Source: Bacteroidia bacterium (lineage in GTDB: Bacteria > Bacteroidota > Bacteroidia > Flavobacteriales > Flavobacteriaceae). From it: a stretch of 64,000 nucleotides of DNA. This document shows, one piece after another, positions 35,927 through 43,340 of the stretch. Location: the NCBI GenBank assembly GCA_030427585.1, contig JAUIBW010000015.1, positions 1 through 64,000 of the forward strand, written 5' to 3'. The translations under genes were made by a program, and so were the position numbers. The notes beneath the pieces were generated by a model. That model saw nothing but the letters and a program-made list of their open reading frames with translations. It made no database searches and was not told the DNA's origin. The first letter of the stretch is position 1. Every line of letters starts with the position of its first letter.

Positions 35927-36658
35927 TTATTTAAAATAATTCAATAGCGTTCCTTTTTTAGAAGAGGACACTGCTAGCTCTTTTCCTGAAGAAAGTACAA
36001 TACTACCCCCTTTACCCTTTCGGTATCGTGTTATTTTACTCACATTTACCAAATAGCTTTTATGAGTTCTCACAAACCCATGAGGATTTAGGGATTCTTC
36101 AAAATATTTTAGCGTTTTACTTACTAACTTCTGGCCTCTATTCAGGTAAATTTTCGTGTAGTTGTCATCAGCTTCACAATACAAAATATCAGAAATCTGT
36201 AGAACCTCGAAACCATCTTGTTGCGGAATAGTGATTTTACCTTCGACTGTAGTTACCTTAGGAACTAAAACAGTATCCAAAAGAGCAGCTTCCCGTTGCT
36301 TGATATAACTTACATGATCAACAGCTTTGATAAGGTTATCAATTGCAATAGGTTTTAATAAGTAATAAGTTGCCTGAGCATTTAGAGCGTCTACCGCATA
36401 ATGATCATAGGCAGTTACAAAGACAATTTCGAATGTACGATCAGGAACTTGCTCTAATAAATCAAATGCATTTCCATAAGGCATTTCTACATCTAGAAAC
36501 AACATATCAGGAGTGTGGGATTCTAGCAAGTTCAATGTTTCTTTTACATTGGCTGCTTCTCCCAAAATGGCAACCGACGGGCAATACTTACCTAAATAAT
36601 TTCTAAGTATGGCTCGGCTATTAGTTTCATCATCTACTATGATCGCGGTTAAGTTCAT
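35927..36658 (-). CDS. LytTR family DNA-binding response regulator
   Basis: REC domain (AIIVDDETNSR, MLFLDVEMP, FVTAYDHYAVDAL) plus LytTR domain (ILYCEADDNYTKIYL, FVRTHKSYLVNVSKI). Confidence 0.95.
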   Translation of the reverse strand: MNLTAIIVDDETNSRAILRNYLGKYCPSVAILGEAANVKETLNLLESHTPDMLFLDVEMPYGNAFDLLEQVPDRTFEIVFVTAYDHYAVDALNAQATYYLLKPIAIDNLIKAVDHVSYIKQREAALLDTVLVPKVTTVEGKITIPQQDGFEVLQISDILYCEADDNYTKIYLNRGQKLVSKTLKYFEESLNPHGFVRTHKSYLVNVSKITRYRKGKGGSIVLSSGKELAVSSSKKGTLLNYFK

Positions 36659-38872
36659 TTACTTGTCTTTCTTAAGAATTAATTTTACCTGTGTTCCTTC
36701 TGTGTTATCTTCAAGATCCGATATAAACACATCAATCTTATCTTTATACATTTTATTAAGGATGGCAATTCTCTTTTTAATATTACCCATCCCTCTGGAT
36801 TTTTGAAGTTTTTGATTTTGCGTTTTCAGTTCTTTAGATTTTTTACGTCCAATTCCATTATCGGTAATTGTAATTTCTATACTCTCTGATGTTGCTTTTT
36901 GAAAACATATCGATAGTAGTCCTTTTTCAGTTTTATATCGTAGTCCATGCCATACTGCATTTTCTACATATGGCTGCAATAACATAGGAGGAATCATATA
37001 TTCATTAATATCTATTTCTGGATCAACCTCAACCGTATACTCAAATTTATCCTGAAACCTAAAATGTTCTAACTGCACATATAATCTTAAGAGTTCTATC
37101 TCCTTTTCTAGAGGAATAAAATCTTCTTCACTATTCTCTAAAACAGCTCTCATTAATAACGAAAAGTCGGTAAGATATCGATTTGCAGTTCTTTCATCAC
37201 TTGTTGCAATAAATGTATTCACAGAGTTTAAAGCATTAAAAATAAAATGTGGATTCATTTGAGAACGTAGTGATTTTAATGCCAAAATATTATTTGCATA
37301 TCGTTGTTGCTTCATATTACGATACATCAAATACCCAGCAAGAAGTAACAAAACCATTAACCCGATTAAAAAATAGATTACAATTTGTTGTCGTATACTT
37401 TGTTGGTTTGCTATTTCTTGTGAAGCAAATGCCAATTCATATCTTGCTTCATTTAACTCCCTATCTTTTTCTAATGTAGTAATTCTATTTGCCCTCTGCG
37501 CTAGTTCTCTGCTAAAACGAGCTGCCTGTGATATCTCCTGATCTTTTTGAATATACAACTTGTCTATGATTACCTCATACTCTTTGAAAGCATCTGAGGC
37601 CTTTTCTAACTCTCCTTTTTCTCGATAGACTTCACCAAGTTTTCGGGTAGCATCTTTTTGAACAATAAGGTCATTTTTTGATTCTGCCTCTTTAATACTT
37701 TCTTCTAAATATGGTATGGCTTCGTCATACGCTTCTTGGGCTGCAAAAGCGCTGGCAATTTTATAATTTTGCACCTGCGTAGTTAGCGAGTTGTCTTTCT
37801 CTGCCTGTGGGCCTTCATTCTCACTACTCTCTTCAATCTCTTCGATATCCTCGAGTGCTTCTTTTCTTAATTGTATCTCTTTGCCATAGCTATTACTCTT
37901 ATTATAAAAGTCTGCTGCAACAGATCGTTGTCTTGCTGATGTTTTTTTATCTTTTTGTTGTGCCAGTTGCACTGAATTATCCAAATACTCCTCAGCATCC
38001 CTAATATTCCCTTCTTGCTGTAATACCTCGGCTAGCTTAGAGTTTAATAAAATCACTTTGTCGTCTATTTTTTTTCTCTGACTAATTGCAAGTGCTTTAT
38101 TGTAATTAGTAATAGCATCAGGATAGTGTTGTAACCCTTTATAACTATCTCCCAGACCTTCATAAACAATAGCTTTTTGAATATTACTCAATCTGGATTG
38201 CTGTAATTCATCAAAAGTATTTAGAGCCGCCTGGTAATTTTTTCCTTCTAGTTGGGCATTAGCCAATTTAATTTTTACATCTGTATTATACTTATTTTTA
38301 AGACTTAGAAGGTAGTTGCTCTCTGCAAGATCTGGTTGTTTCCAATACTCATAAATATCAGCTAACGACTCAAACAATTCAGCCTTTTTATCGTCTGATG
38401 AAGGATCATCATCTCGTATTGTTTCTAGAGCATTAGTAATATATTCTATACTTGTAGCTGCATCCTTTTTTAAGAAGCTTTTTGCTGCTCTAAGGTTTTC
38501 CTGATACCTCAACTCTCCTTTTTGTTTTGAAACCGAAGGTGATTTAGCCTCTTGTGGATTATCCTGTACTTCAATATCAATTCTTTGACCATCTTTAATC
38601 GTATATCGTATCGTATTAAAACTATCATGAGTAATTACAAGTTCATCTCCAACCCGGGCTTCAATCCTAAAATCACCAAAAACATCAGTTGTAATAGTTC
38701 CTTTTCCCAGTACAGTCACATCGACATCTCTAATTCCCTTTCGGGTATTCTTCTCCTTCACAGAACCTTTAATACTCATTGATTCTGGTCGCTTTGCCTT
38801 AGCATTTTCTTGCCCCAAAACCAATATAGGAAGGAAGCAAAGAAATACTATTATCAAACCAATCTTCTTCAT
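36659..38872 (-). CDS. Sensor histidine kinase (LytS/His_kinase PF06580 type) with N-terminal carboxypeptidase-regulatory-like domain and TPR repeats
   Basis: Signal peptide; MSIKGSVKEKNTRKGIRDVDVTVLGKGTITTDVFGDFRIEA; TPR region; TM VIYFLIGLMVLLLLAGYLMY; LRSQMNPHFIFNALNSVNTFI; ITDNGIGRKKS. Confidence 0.93.
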   Translation of the reverse strand: MKKIGLIIVFLCFLPILVLGQENAKAKRPESMSIKGSVKEKNTRKGIRDVDVTVLGKGTITTDVFGDFRIEARVGDELVITHDSFNTIRYTIKDGQRIDIEVQDNPQEAKSPSVSKQKGELRYQENLRAAKSFLKKDAATSIEYITNALETIRDDDPSSDDKKAELFESLADIYEYWKQPDLAESNYLLSLKNKYNTDVKIKLANAQLEGKNYQAALNTFDELQQSRLSNIQKAIVYEGLGDSYKGLQHYPDAITNYNKALAISQRKKIDDKVILLNSKLAEVLQQEGNIRDAEEYLDNSVQLAQQKDKKTSARQRSVAADFYNKSNSYGKEIQLRKEALEDIEEIEESSENEGPQAEKDNSLTTQVQNYKIASAFAAQEAYDEAIPYLEESIKEAESKNDLIVQKDATRKLGEVYREKGELEKASDAFKEYEVIIDKLYIQKDQEISQAARFSRELAQRANRITTLEKDRELNEARYELAFASQEIANQQSIRQQIVIYFLIGLMVLLLLAGYLMYRNMKQQRYANNILALKSLRSQMNPHFIFNALNSVNTFIATSDERTANRYLTDFSLLMRAVLENSEEDFIPLEKEIELLRLYVQLEHFRFQDKFEYTVEVDPEIDINEYMIPPMLLQPYVENAVWHGLRYKTEKGLLSICFQKATSESIEITITDNGIGRKKSKELKTQNQKLQKSRGMGNIKKRIAILNKMYKDKIDVFISDLEDNTEGTQVKLILKKDK

Positions 38873-38979
38873 TATATACTATTAAAACAAGGTAAACTTA
38901 ATTCATTTAAGTCGGATAATAAAATTCGGATCTCGTGATTATATTGTTTTACAGTAGGTTTTTAGGATAAAAAAGAAAC

Positions 38980-39030
38980 TTCCCTAATCAAGAAAGTAAG
39001 TTCCCTCATTTATATGAACTAATCCCTCAT
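38980..39030. promoter_or_regulatory. Three 9-bp direct repeats at 21-bp period (candidate LytTR regulator binding array)
   Basis: TTCCCTAAT (38980), TTCCCTCAT (39001), ATCCCTCAT (39022), each separated by 12 bp. Confidence 0.6.
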
Positions 39031-39089
39031 TATAGATTTTTAATCAAAAAAGTTAACTATAGTTTTATCCAAAATTAAAAAAGGAAACT

Positions 39090-40262
39090 ATGAAGACATT
39101 TTTTACATGGAGTATATTATGTTTATTTGTTACTATTTCTTGTAACGCAAATAATAAACCGAACTCCGATCTCGCATTCCAAAAAGAAAAAAATCACCTA
39201 ATACAAACTACCAAAACTGATCCAAATACACGTAACATACAAGTGGCTTTATTATTAGACACCAGCAATAGTATGGATGGGCTTATTGACCAGGCTAAAG
39301 CTCAACTATGGGAAATCGTAAATGAACTTTCTTATGCGAAATGTGGTCATAACAAAATAAAGCTCGAAATAGCACTATACGAATATGGTAATGATGGTTT
39401 ACCACCTCAAGAAGGGTTTATTAGACAGGTCTTACCATTCTCTGATGACTTAGATGAAATATCCAAAGAACTTTTTGCACTTACAACTAATGGAGGAAAC
39501 GAATATTGTGGTAAAGTGATCAATACCTCAATTAACCAATTAGGTTGGAAAAAAAATAATGATCATTTAAAACTAATCTTTATAGCCGGCAACGAACCCT
39601 TTACCCAAGGGCCGGTTGATTATAAAGATGCTGCAGCAGATGCGTTAGAAAAAGATATAACCATTAACACCATTTTTTGTGGTAACTACAGACAAGGCAT
39701 CGAAACGATGTGGAAACACGGAGCCGATATCACAACCGGAGAATATAGTGCAATTGATCATAATCGTGAAACCGTACACATTGCAACACCATATGATGAT
39801 ATTATTCTTAAGCTTAATCATAAACTAAATGGTACATATATCTATTATGGTCACCAAGGTGCTCAAAAAAGACAATTGCAAGCCGAACAGGATAGTAATG
39901 CAAGGTCTTACAGTTCTGCTAATGCTGTAAGTCGAACTGTTAGTAAGAGCTCTGGTTTCTATAAAAACAAAAGTTGGGATCTAATCGATGCAGCCGAGGA
40001 CGAAGCTTTTGAAATCGAAAAAGTAGCAAAAGATGAATTGCCAAAAGAGCTTAAAGGAAAATCTAAAGCCGAGTTAAAGCAATATATTGCAGAAAAAAGT
40101 AAAGCTCGTAAAGGGATACAACAAAAAATTAAAGAGTTAAATAAAAAGCGTGTGTTGTATATCAAAGAAAATAGTAAAAAAGATGACACAAACCTGGAAA
40201 CTGCTTTACTAAATGCTATCAAAAAGCAAGGAAGAAAAAAATCTTTCTCCTGGGAAGAATAA
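39090..40262 (+). CDS. VWA domain-containing lipoprotein
   Basis: Lipobox LFVTISC; VALLLDTSNSMDGLIDQAKAQLWEIV MIDAS motif. Confidence 0.85.
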   Translation: MKTFFTWSILCLFVTISCNANNKPNSDLAFQKEKNHLIQTTKTDPNTRNIQVALLLDTSNSMDGLIDQAKAQLWEIVNELSYAKCGHNKIKLEIALYEYGNDGLPPQEGFIRQVLPFSDDLDEISKELFALTTNGGNEYCGKVINTSINQLGWKKNNDHLKLIFIAGNEPFTQGPVDYKDAAADALEKDITINTIFCGNYRQGIETMWKHGADITTGEYSAIDHNRETVHIATPYDDIILKLNHKLNGTYIYYGHQGAQKRQLQAEQDSNARSYSSANAVSRTVSKSSGFYKNKSWDLIDAAEDEAFEIEKVAKDELPKELKGKSKAELKQYIAEKSKARKGIQQKIKELNKKRVLYIKENSKKDDTNLETALLNAIKKQGRKKSFSWEE

Positions 40263-40299: not shown

Positions 40300-40812
40300 A
40301 TGAAAAAGGTCACAAAAATAATTATACTAATTCTAATACCTATGTCTATGCAGGCGCAACAACAAAATAAGTTATCAAAATCAAATGTTGATTATGATTC
40401 TTTTCTGGAGATATCTGAAGAAATTTTAGAATATAGAAAAGAACGATTAATCCCTCTGGAAACTTTTCTACAATATATGACAGATCAGAATACTATTTTA
40501 TTAGATACTCGCTCTGAAAGTGCTTACCAACAAAAACACCTTAAAGGGGCAACACACATTAATTTTTCTGATTTTACAGAAGGGAAACTGGCAAAAAAAA
40601 TACCTTCTAAAAAGACTCGTATTTTGATTTATTGTAATAACAATATCGATGGAGATCCTATTAATTTTGCTTCCAAAATGGCTCCTCTAGCATTAAACAT
40701 TCCAACATTTATAAATCTCTACGGATATGGTTATAAAAATGTATATGAACTATCTTCCTTGGTTCCTATAAAAGATCAAAGGCTACAATTTGATGGTTCC
40801 TTTTCCAAATAA
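40300..40812 (+). CDS. Secreted rhodanese-like domain protein
   Basis: Signal peptide; ILLDTRSESAYQQKHLKGATHINFSDF; RILIYCNNNIDGDP active-site Cys loop. Confidence 0.85.
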   Translation: MKKVTKIIILILIPMSMQAQQQNKLSKSNVDYDSFLEISEEILEYRKERLIPLETFLQYMTDQNTILLDTRSESAYQQKHLKGATHINFSDFTEGKLAKKIPSKKTRILIYCNNNIDGDPINFASKMAPLALNIPTFINLYGYGYKNVYELSSLVPIKDQRLQFDGSFSK

Positions 40813-40878: not shown

Positions 40879-41901
40879 TTAGTTTTTAGAATTAACAGCA
40901 GGGCAATTACAATCCCATCTTTCTTTACGTTTTCCAAAATCATACCCTAGAGTAATTTGATGAAAACCTCCATTACTAAGCACTACCGAATTTAATTGAT
41001 AACTATAGGTATACCCCGCCATCCACTTTTTATAATTAACTCCCAAAAATGGAGTTATGTATTGCAATTGTTGACTCTCTATAGAAGTACCATCCTGAGA
41101 AAATTCTGCTCCATCTAAGCTACGTCTGTAAGATATTCCTCCCCATAAAGTACTGGTACTAAATTCCCGATATACTTTTAAATTAGCATCAATGGTACTT
41201 TCTTGAGTTTCATCTGTGGCTTGATACATAATAGATGGCTCTAAACTCCACGGAGTAGCACCAATACCAAATAAATACCCTAAAGAAAAGATATATCTAC
41301 GTTGATTATTAGATTCTCGTATCGGGGTATCATTATCAAAAATATCACGAACAGTTGGCAATAGATTTTTAACAGTAATATGTGCATACCATTCTAAATA
41401 GTTATAAGATAATCCCACATCAACATTGTAATATACATCTTTTTGTACCCTATCCAGAATTACAGGATCTGGATCAAAAGGATCATCAAGTCCTCTTAAA
41501 TCTACATTAGATTGTATCAAACCAGCACTAAGACCAAAAGATAACATATTTAAATCTGTTCTATCTCTCGAAAACAAAAGATGATAAGCATATGTTAAAT
41601 ACAGTCCTGTTTGAGAAAACCTACCATTTTCATCTCTATATACAATCCCTCCCAAACCAGATTTCTCGCCAGTTCTAAAATTAATATTTAAAGTCTGTAG
41701 ATTAGGTGCATTATTCACATCAAACCATTGCTTTCTAGCAGTAAGCCTAATTTTATTAGCATTTGAGGCACCAGCCATTGCAGGATGTATCAAGTACAAA
41801 TTATCAGAGAGATAATCAGAATATACAGGGATTCCTTCTTGCGAAAAAACAAATGGAGATACCAGTACTAATACTACTACATAGAATGTTTTTAAGTTCA
41901 T
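40879..41901 (-). CDS. PorP/SprF family type IX secretion system membrane protein
   Basis: Signal peptide MNLKTFYVVVLVLVSPFVFSQ; PVYSDYLSDNLYLIHPAMAGASNANKIRLTARKQWFDVNNAPNLQTL. Start placed at 41901 (ORF track 41946). Confidence 0.92.
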   Translation of the reverse strand: MNLKTFYVVVLVLVSPFVFSQEGIPVYSDYLSDNLYLIHPAMAGASNANKIRLTARKQWFDVNNAPNLQTLNINFRTGEKSGLGGIVYRDENGRFSQTGLYLTYAYHLLFSRDRTDLNMLSFGLSAGLIQSNVDLRGLDDPFDPDPVILDRVQKDVYYNVDVGLSYNYLEWYAHITVKNLLPTVRDIFDNDTPIRESNNQRRYIFSLGYLFGIGATPWSLEPSIMYQATDETQESTIDANLKVYREFSTSTLWGGISYRRSLDGAEFSQDGTSIESQQLQYITPFLGVNYKKWMAGYTYSYQLNSVVLSNGGFHQITLGYDFGKRKERWDCNCPAVNSKN

Positions 41902-42215
41902 TTGAGCACTATTATTTAGGGGCCAATATAGAATTTGTGAATTCAATGTAAACTATTAAAAACAGTTTATATTGTGAGGCTTCACCTTATTTTTTTAAAT
42001 AAATCATTGTATTTCAATTGCTCCAAAGATATAAATTTTTGTCAGAATACAAGATCTATACTTTTTGAGGTTAAGATGAGTTAAAGAATACACTCCACAC
42101 TTAGTAGCTATTTTTAACTAATTTACACACAGTTAGAAATTAATTCCTAATCATTATACCTTTTGTGCAAACATAGCTGCATCCCCATGATAAGTCAATA
42201 TTCAATTTAGATTTT

Positions 42216-42245
42216 GTGATGAATCACTAAGTATTAGTGATGAAT
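42216..42245. repeat. GTGATGAAT direct repeat at 21-bp period, overlapping an ATCACTA-n5-TAGTGAT inverted repeat
   Basis: GTGATGAAT at 42216 and 42237; ATCACTAAGTATTAGTGAT nested between. Confidence 0.55.
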
Positions 42246-42406
42246 TTTTTGGCTGATAATTTTATTCTTCTTTATGTCTCTACAATTATTACCTCATTCA
42301 ACAACAAAAGCCAAAATTATGTACTATATCTGTTTGCATGTATTCAATAATTAGTTAAAAATTGTTAGCATTACGCACACATTACTAATATCGTGCTGCT
42401 TTTTAG

Positions 42407-42414
42407 TAGATTTG
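42407..42414 (+). promoter_or_regulatory. Candidate -7 promoter element (TAnnTTTG)
   Basis: TAGATTTG 14 nt upstream of the NifU-like ATG. Confidence 0.4.
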
Positions 42415-42428
42415 CAAAAAAATAGCGC

Positions 42429-43340
42429 ATGGAAAAGAGTTTTGAAATAAAAATAGAATCTACTTCAAATCCAGGTATTGTTAAATTTGAAGCCAATTAT
42501 TTTCTAACCCAGCATACCAGTTATGAATTTGAGAATATAGATCAGGCCAAAAATGCTCCTCTTGCACAACAATTATTTTATCTACCATTTGTAAAAAGGG
42601 TATTTATTGCACAAAATTTTGTGGCTATAGATAAGTATGATATTGTAGAATGGCAAGATGTGCAAGAAGAAGTTGCACAACAGATCAAAAATTATCTCAA
42701 TAGTGGCCAACCCATCATCATTGAAACTGAAGCTGAAACCACAAAAAAAGTTCCTATTACTATTTATGCAGAGAGTACACCTAACCCTGCTGTATTAAAA
42801 TTTGTTGCTAATAAAAAATTAGTCACTGCAGGGCACGAATTTAAAAATATTGATGATGCCAGCGAAGCACCCTTGGTGCAAGAGTTATTTCATTTTCCGT
42901 TTGTTAAAGAAGTATACATTGATGAAAATTATATTTCTATAGGGAAATATGATATGGCAGATTGGAATGATATTACTACAGAAATTAGAGATTTTATACG
43001 CACTTACCTAGAACAAGGTAAAGAAGTTTTGACTGCAAATGCTGCCGTGACAAAAGAAGAAGTAAAAAAACAATCTGATTTAGATTTTGAAAATCTTGAT
43101 GATGTCTCAAAAGATATCGTAAGTATTATTGATGAATATATTAAACCCGCTGTTGCTAGTGATGGAGGTAACATATTATTTGATTCTTATGATCCGAAGA
43201 GCAAAGGAGTAAAAGTAATTTTACAAGGAGCTTGCAGTGGATGCCCGTCTTCTACTTTTACATTAAAAAACGGAATCGAAAATATGTTAAAAGAGATGTT
43301 AAAAGATAAAGTAGAATATGTAGAAGCTATAAATGGTTAA
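42429..43340 (+). CDS. NifU family Fe-S scaffold protein with two tandem Nfu_N domains
   Basis: Two NPGIVKFEAN / NPAVLKFVAN...FPFVKEVYIDENYISIGKYD repeats; C-terminal LQGACSGCPSSTFTLKNGIE. Confidence 0.93.
   Translation: MEKSFEIKIESTSNPGIVKFEANYFLTQHTSYEFENIDQAKNAPLAQQLFYLPFVKRVFIAQNFVAIDKYDIVEWQDVQEEVAQQIKNYLNSGQPIIIETEAETTKKVPITIYAESTPNPAVLKFVANKKLVTAGHEFKNIDDASEAPLVQELFHFPFVKEVYIDENYISIGKYDMADWNDITTEIRDFIRTYLEQGKEVLTANAAVTKEEVKKQSDLDFENLDDVSKDIVSIIDEYIKPAVASDGGNILFDSYDPKSKGVKVILQGACSGCPSSTFTLKNGIENMLKEMLKDKVEYVEAING

Follow-up and report, generated by a model that had tools for sequence, protein, structure and literature searches.

What purpose is served by three short direct repeats lying between two divergently transcribed operons, one encoding a histidine kinase and a LytTR response regulator and the other a VWA-domain lipoprotein-like protein? 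We asked whether the repeats form an operator, which protein would read it, and which promoters it would control. The analysis started from a stretch of DNA of 64,000 nucleotides, hereafter the window, in which the relevant features are:

38980..38988, plus strand: operator repeat copy 3, kinase-proximal, TTCCCTAAT, kept in the Aquimarina alignment
39001..39009, plus strand: operator repeat copy 2, TTCCCTCAT, kept in the Aquimarina alignment
39022..39030, plus strand: operator repeat copy 1, proximal to the VWA promoter, ATCCCTCAT(T), kept in the Aquimarina alignment
35927..36658, minus strand: response regulator with receiver (PF00072) and LytTR (PF04397) domains by Pfam, the presumed array binder
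36659..38872, minus strand: histidine kinase with signal peptide, CarboxypepD_reg-like domain, TPRs and PF06580 His_kinase domain by Pfam
39090..40262, plus strand: VWA-domain lipoprotein-like gene, putative target (gene call, Pfam)
40300..40812, plus strand: rhodanese-domain gene, putative target, probably in the same operon as the VWA gene (gene call, Pfam)

A three-copy repeat array beside a LytTR two-component system

The 9-bp repeats that the initial annotation had placed at 38980, 39001 and 39022 start at exactly these positions on the plus strand, with two 12-bp gaps between them and a period of 21 bp, and our gene calls and Pfam matches agree with its placement of the array in the divergent intergenic region between the kinase-LytTR operon and the VWA gene. 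On the plus strand of the window this is the sole three-copy 9-mer array of such identity at period 21, and a scan of the window at ten other periods returned 0-2 matches. The functional unit is slightly longer than 9 bp, reading TTYMCTCATT followed by AAA, so that the consensus of a pair is TTYMCTCATT-N11-TTYMCTCATT. When the window was scored with a matrix built from unlinked target sites alone (described below), the three copies received per-position p values of 9e-5, 2e-5 and 1.4e-4.

The regulator contains both a receiver and a LytTR domain (Pfam E-values of 4e-19 for PF00072 and 6e-22 for PF04397), and the PF06580 match of its partner (3.9e-24) identifies a LytS/His_kinase-type kinase. 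Pfam reported no 5TMR-LYT domain in the kinase, whose sensor part consists of TPRs and a CarboxypepD_reg-like domain, the latter a match below the curated Pfam cut-off; the signal peptide and membrane segment were read from the sequence. As a histidine kinase and a receiver domain are present, the pair falls outside the definition of a LytTR regulatory system (LRS), in which the partner of the LytTR regulator is an inhibitory membrane protein and a histidine kinase is absent.

Conservation of the array

The named relatives of the window belong to Aquimarina, and in 28 Aquimarina genomes the gene arrangement around the array is maintained, with all three repeats holding the exact 21-bp phase while their spacers diverge. 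Across 21 non-redundant Aquimarina orthologues, the repeat columns carry 1.40, 1.48 and 1.49 bits, against 0.51, 0.48 and 0.62 bits per column for the spacers and flank (0.48-0.51 for the 12-bp spacers), and the autocorrelation of conservation is maximal at lag 21 (0.73). Only one Aquimarina sequence (L020) has an indel inside the array, of 1 bp. An equivalent array occurs in other genera, where the consensus is nearer to TTTACTCATT. The initial annotation had named loss of the 21-bp phasing in orthologous loci as an outcome that would overturn its reading; the phase is kept in these Aquimarina loci, and the reading therefore passes that test. Short repeats are common by chance, and AT-rich intergenic DNA might be expected to produce some. 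However, the conservation in Aquimarina refutes a chance origin, against which the fixed promoter geometry described next and the scores from the unlinked-site matrix also speak, and we assign it practically no probability.

Geometry at the VWA-rhodanese promoter

Two further elements, both in conserved columns, separate copy 1 from the VWA gene:

39037..39041, plus strand: T-run, probable -33 element of the VWA promoter
39060..39066, plus strand: -7 box TAGTTTT (TAnnTTT), a flavobacterial sigma-A box, of the VWA-rhodanese promoter

The distance from the start of copy 1 to the -7 box is 38 bp in 27 of the 28 orthologues under a strict pattern; the 28th has TAATTTC in the same place when inspected by eye. 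The repeats lie directly upstream of the T-rich -33 element, and a T-run also occupies offsets 15-18 of the target-site consensus. TAnnTTTG is the flavobacterial sigma-A -7 box and is located at -12 to -5 (PMC9723704), from which it follows that the repeats occupy the intervals of about -50 to -42, -71 to -63 and -92 to -84. This geometry is the standard one of a LytTR activator. The direction of regulation is unreadable from sequence, which leaves room for a regulator that represses its target promoters instead of activating them; however, in arrays with the 38-bp spacing the repeats are placed upstream of -33, clear of the -7 box and the start, and a position upstream of -33/-35 and off the -7 box is the usual one for LytTR activators (PMC6193735, PMC4227749). 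We therefore regard repression as unlikely.

Unlinked sites and a candidate regulon

The initial annotation had proposed a local operator, for autoregulation and/or control of the VWA-rhodanese pair. That much is supported, yet it overlooked a multi-gene regulon, as the motif recurs upstream of unlinked genes in the window's own genome, in relatives and in other genera. The clear sites in the own genome lie upstream of the following:

Contig C15: alpha-2-macroglobulin-like (A2M) gene, three copies
Contig C37: SIMPL-domain gene
Contig C56: YfbK-like VWA gene with CarboxypepD_reg and Plug domains
Contig C50: non-coding transcript

Further candidate targets, from relatives and other genera, are VIT, DUF4139, TPR-Plug, CarboxypepD_reg, DUF6146, transglutaminase-like and TonB genes, and most of the distant sites have two copies. 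Comparing the C-terminal sequence encoded at TCS (two-component system) loci with the Aquimarina SIMPL target, we observed that in some genera the SIMPL gene lies just upstream of the VWA gene in the TCS locus, while in Aquimarina it is unlinked.

The promoter distance is shared by these sites. Among 69 arrays chosen by motif alone from TCS-positive genomes (one, G296, being from a draft scored TCS-negative that is probably incomplete), 48 have a TAnnTTT -7 box exactly 38 bp from the start of the promoter-proximal repeat and no other offset exceeds 7, whereas none of 7 arrays selected in the same way from TCS-negative genomes has the box at 38 bp. The combined operator-promoter pattern matches 9 times in the own genome and 4-7 times in each of eight other TCS-positive Aquimarina, against 0-1 matches for the reversed-pattern control in each of these nine genomes, and 0, 0, 1 and 0 times in four Aquimarina genomes without a full-length kinase match. 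Not every match is real, and one with three mismatches (on contig C19) looks like chance.

Two other sites in the own genome deserve mention. Identical operator-promoter copies are found at C42:35-100 and C43:73162-73227, one of them at a contig end, which suggests a repeated element carrying a regulon-like site. A further site at C56:255873-255938 is followed by sequence that matches a site in another genome (G004:C1:665266, L169), downstream of which there is no clear gene, only short reading frames.

Co-occurrence of the array with the kinase

The own genome has 34 LytTR domains and several regulators could share the same geometry; the array might be read by some other DNA-binding protein, such as another LytTR regulator from among the 34, with the adjacent regulator a bystander. 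Of 351 genomes of the family, 180 contain a kinase orthologue at a cut-off of E <= 1e-90. Strict motif pairs are present in 115 of the 180 kinase-positive genomes (206 sites, against 15 for the reversed control), and in 12 of the 171 kinase-negative ones (12 sites; reversed control 6), a difference with a Fisher p of 3e-31, although the genomes are not phylogenetically independent and the counts include loci orthologous to each other. Because relatedness inflates this test, we compared genera that offer one TCS-positive and one TCS-negative genome: the TCS-positive genome is favoured in 12, the other in one, and 5 are ties (p 0.003, tallied by hand), and the one genus against is represented by G296, a draft that is 82% complete. 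G296 has a good site, and in so incomplete a draft the TCS may merely be missing from the assembly. We stress that the strict pair pattern is stringent and tuned to few genera, leaving 65 of the 180 TCS-positive genomes without a strict pair, and that some of the loci later counted had served to refine it, a concern that the reversed control and the promoter-distance test lessen but do not remove.

Loss of the TCS has a visible counterpart. The A2M target is retained in many TCS-negative species, and there its array is mostly absent or decayed (p 0.002); the clear exception is G211, which lacks the TCS and keeps a good A2M array. The motif matches that we inspected in six other TCS-negative genomes, all from outside Aquimarina (G058, G079, G081, G089, G295 and G394), resemble microsatellites or chance occurrences without the 38-bp geometry, and we rejected them. 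Three VWA-positive, TCS-negative genomes have zero sites; we considered a tie of the motif to the VWA gene instead of the TCS, and VWA-less and TCS-less genomes rule this out.

The presence of the array thus follows this particular kinase orthologue across the family, the array persists beside the kinase in VWA-less genomes, and of the 34 LytTR loci in the own genome the window locus alone has an array within 10 kb. All three observations count against a binder encoded elsewhere, which we consider improbable, although some other regulator that accompanies the TCS from genome to genome could in principle read the array.

A probable second role at the kinase promoter

On the other side of the array, the minus strand carries the elements of the kinase-LytTR promoter:

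38894..38900, minus strand: -7 box TAAGTTT, conserved in 28 Aquimarina
38915..38925, minus strand: conserved element GATAATAAAAT in the -33 region, upstream of the -7 box (Aquimarina alignment)

An element resembling GATAATAAAAT lies upstream of the kinase -7 box in other genera too. The region as a whole (38890-38925) is unusually conserved as GGTAAACTTAATCCATTT...GGGATAATAAAAT in 28 genomes, beyond what the -7 and -33 boxes would need.

The array might serve the VWA-rhodanese promoter alone, with an independent kinase promoter whose spacing reflects no more than the packing of promoters. The repeats are oriented towards the VWA gene, the 38-bp geometry matches that of the one-sided distant targets, and in Aquimarina the kinase -7 box is about 80 bp from the nearest repeat, but we consider this reading less likely than not. 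Against it, the 55 bp between the array and the kinase promoter have zero indels in 28 species despite low sequence conservation. Each of the 15 Aquimarina loci tested has the kinase -7 box 122 bp from copy 1, whereas in 21 loci of other genera the distance is 112 bp (except two at 111 bp and one without), a difference of one whole helical turn. The third copy is nearly confined to the divergent locus: among TCS-VWA loci, 100% of those from Aquimarina and 71% of those from other genera have it, compared with 9% of distant targets. Finally, the array remains next to the kinase in four VWA-less genomes, where it points towards no gene; two others (G191 and G304) keep the TCS with no array beside it. 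From the constant distance to the kinase promoter and the retention of the array in VWA-less genomes, we infer that the array probably also controls the kinase-regulator operon, a role less certain than that at the VWA promoter. In the VWA-less genomes represented by L234-L237, PorP/SprF-like and NifU-like genes continue to flank the TCS, as at 40879-43340 in the window.

A candidate small RNA in Aquimarina

The transcript on contig C50 (C50:7147-7462, L252) is one of a set of Aquimarina loci (L246-L268) encoding a candidate small RNA, and in 23 of 23 loci it is preceded by a two-copy array that has its -7 box at 38 bp. It terminates in a 14-bp hairpin, 7 pairs of which show compensatory changes, and then a U-run; a search against Rfam gave nothing significant. 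An RNA model matched widely, but the non-Aquimarina matches that we inspected lack the array and represent a general 3'-end element; we therefore rejected the small RNA as a family-wide regulon member and claim it as a candidate target for Aquimarina only. This element (L277-L305) consists of a conserved TTTTTAGGTTGGTTAGTTG, then a GC-rich hairpin and a T-run, is independent of the array, and apparently lies at gene 3' ends across Flavobacteriaceae; it also forms the end of the Aquimarina small RNA.

Comparison with known LytTR operators

The classical LytTR consensus is [TA][AC][CA]GTTN[AG][TG], and we agree with the initial annotation that the repeat, which we read as TTYMCTCATT, departs from it. 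That consensus is not defining, since LytTR sites have no common sequence (PMC4847170). Documented sites consist of 9-bp repeats separated by 12 bp and located 4-11 bp upstream of -35 (PMC6193735). A LytTR-type operator is recognized by at least two direct repeats of 9-11 bp, a spacer of 11-13 bp or period of about 21 bp, and a position just upstream of -35/-33; the array has three repeats, spacers of 12 bp, and 38 bp from repeat start to -7 box.

The sites of HdrR/BrsR and other LytTR regulatory systems of Streptococcus mutans share with the array the 9-bp direct repeats, the 12-bp gap, a location just upstream of -35 (4-11 bp) and an off-consensus sequence, and these systems combine autoregulation with unlinked targets, as we propose here (PMC6193735). 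However, HdrR/BrsR systems pair a regulator with a membrane inhibitor, whereas here a receiver-LytTR regulator is paired with a histidine kinase, and there are three copies at a divergent locus with Bacteroidota sigma-A promoters. AgrA of Staphylococcus aureus is likewise a two-component LytTR activator with direct repeats upstream of divergent promoters, agr P2/P3, but each promoter there has its own repeats, of unrelated sequence, whereas one array is apparently common to both here (PMC4227749). YpdB, from a LytS/LytTR-type pair of Escherichia coli, binds repeats of similar length and spacing at PyhjX; its motif GGCATTTCAT occurs in two copies, whereas the present motif is found at many target promoters (PMC4847170). 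Within Bacteroidota, repeats predicted for an LRS-like operon of Bacteroides precede a Bacteroidetes-type promoter by about 11 bp, but are 11 bp long with an 11-bp gap, have a TCCGG... sequence and belong to a transmembrane LytTR regulator (PMC6193735, Table 3). Our searches of the open-access literature turned up no LytTR operator or regulon described from flavobacteria, and those on BAM or envelope stress gave no match to this regulon. The operator geometry is ordinary for LytTR, while the repeat sequence appears to be new and the family-wide regulon undescribed.

Proposed mechanism and significance

Taken together, the phasing, the arrays in other genera, the co-occurrence with the TCS and the fixed distance to the VWA promoter bear out the original proposal of a LytTR operator, and both halves of its suggested function gain support, control of VWA-rhodanese from the promoter geometry and autoregulation from the kinase distance and the retention in VWA-less genomes. 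The array is very probably the operator of the adjacent LytTR regulator, which would activate VWA-rhodanese and a dispersed regulon, with autoregulation suggested. What the computation shows is conservation, phasing, promoter geometry, a regulon and co-occurrence with the TCS; the identity of the binding protein, activation over repression, autoregulation and the signal are inferences.

In the proposed mechanism, the TPR/CarboxypepD_reg-sensor kinase would phosphorylate the LytTR regulator (35927-36658), whose phosphorylated monomers would bind head-to-tail to the 9-10-bp repeats at 21-bp spacing; as 21 bp corresponds to two helical turns, all repeats would face the same side of the helix. From its position at about -50 to -42, just upstream of -33, the copy nearest the promoter would activate sigma-A transcription of VWA-rhodanese. 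A two-copy site would activate the dispersed regulon of YfbK/VWA, VIT, alpha-2-macroglobulin-like, SIMPL and CarboxypepD_reg/Plug proteins and a TonB protein, and in Aquimarina the candidate small RNA as well. At the divergent locus, the third copy and the fixed helical phase to the kinase promoter would allow the array to control its own operon too.

More speculatively, and with considerable doubt, this may be an undescribed envelope-homeostasis regulon of Flavobacteriaceae, driving a small RNA too in Aquimarina, whose kinase may sense the very assemblies that it regulates. The latter idea comes from the N-terminal CarboxypepD_reg-like domain of the kinase, which is homologous to domains in many of the targets, among them fusions of CarboxypepD_reg and TonB-Plug with VWA, VIT, YfbK or DUF4139 parts; the targets also include a TonB protein. 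Bacteroidota can have many LytTR regulators, as the 34 in this genome illustrate, and for one of them we supply a motif at a constant distance from the promoter, a named candidate regulator, a target list that spans many genera and a natural loss experiment. The regulon, testable in cultivable strains, would for the first time place widespread but uncharacterised surface proteins in a functional context, including YfbK-like VWA, VIT and SIMPL proteins and CarboxypepD_reg-Plug fusions.
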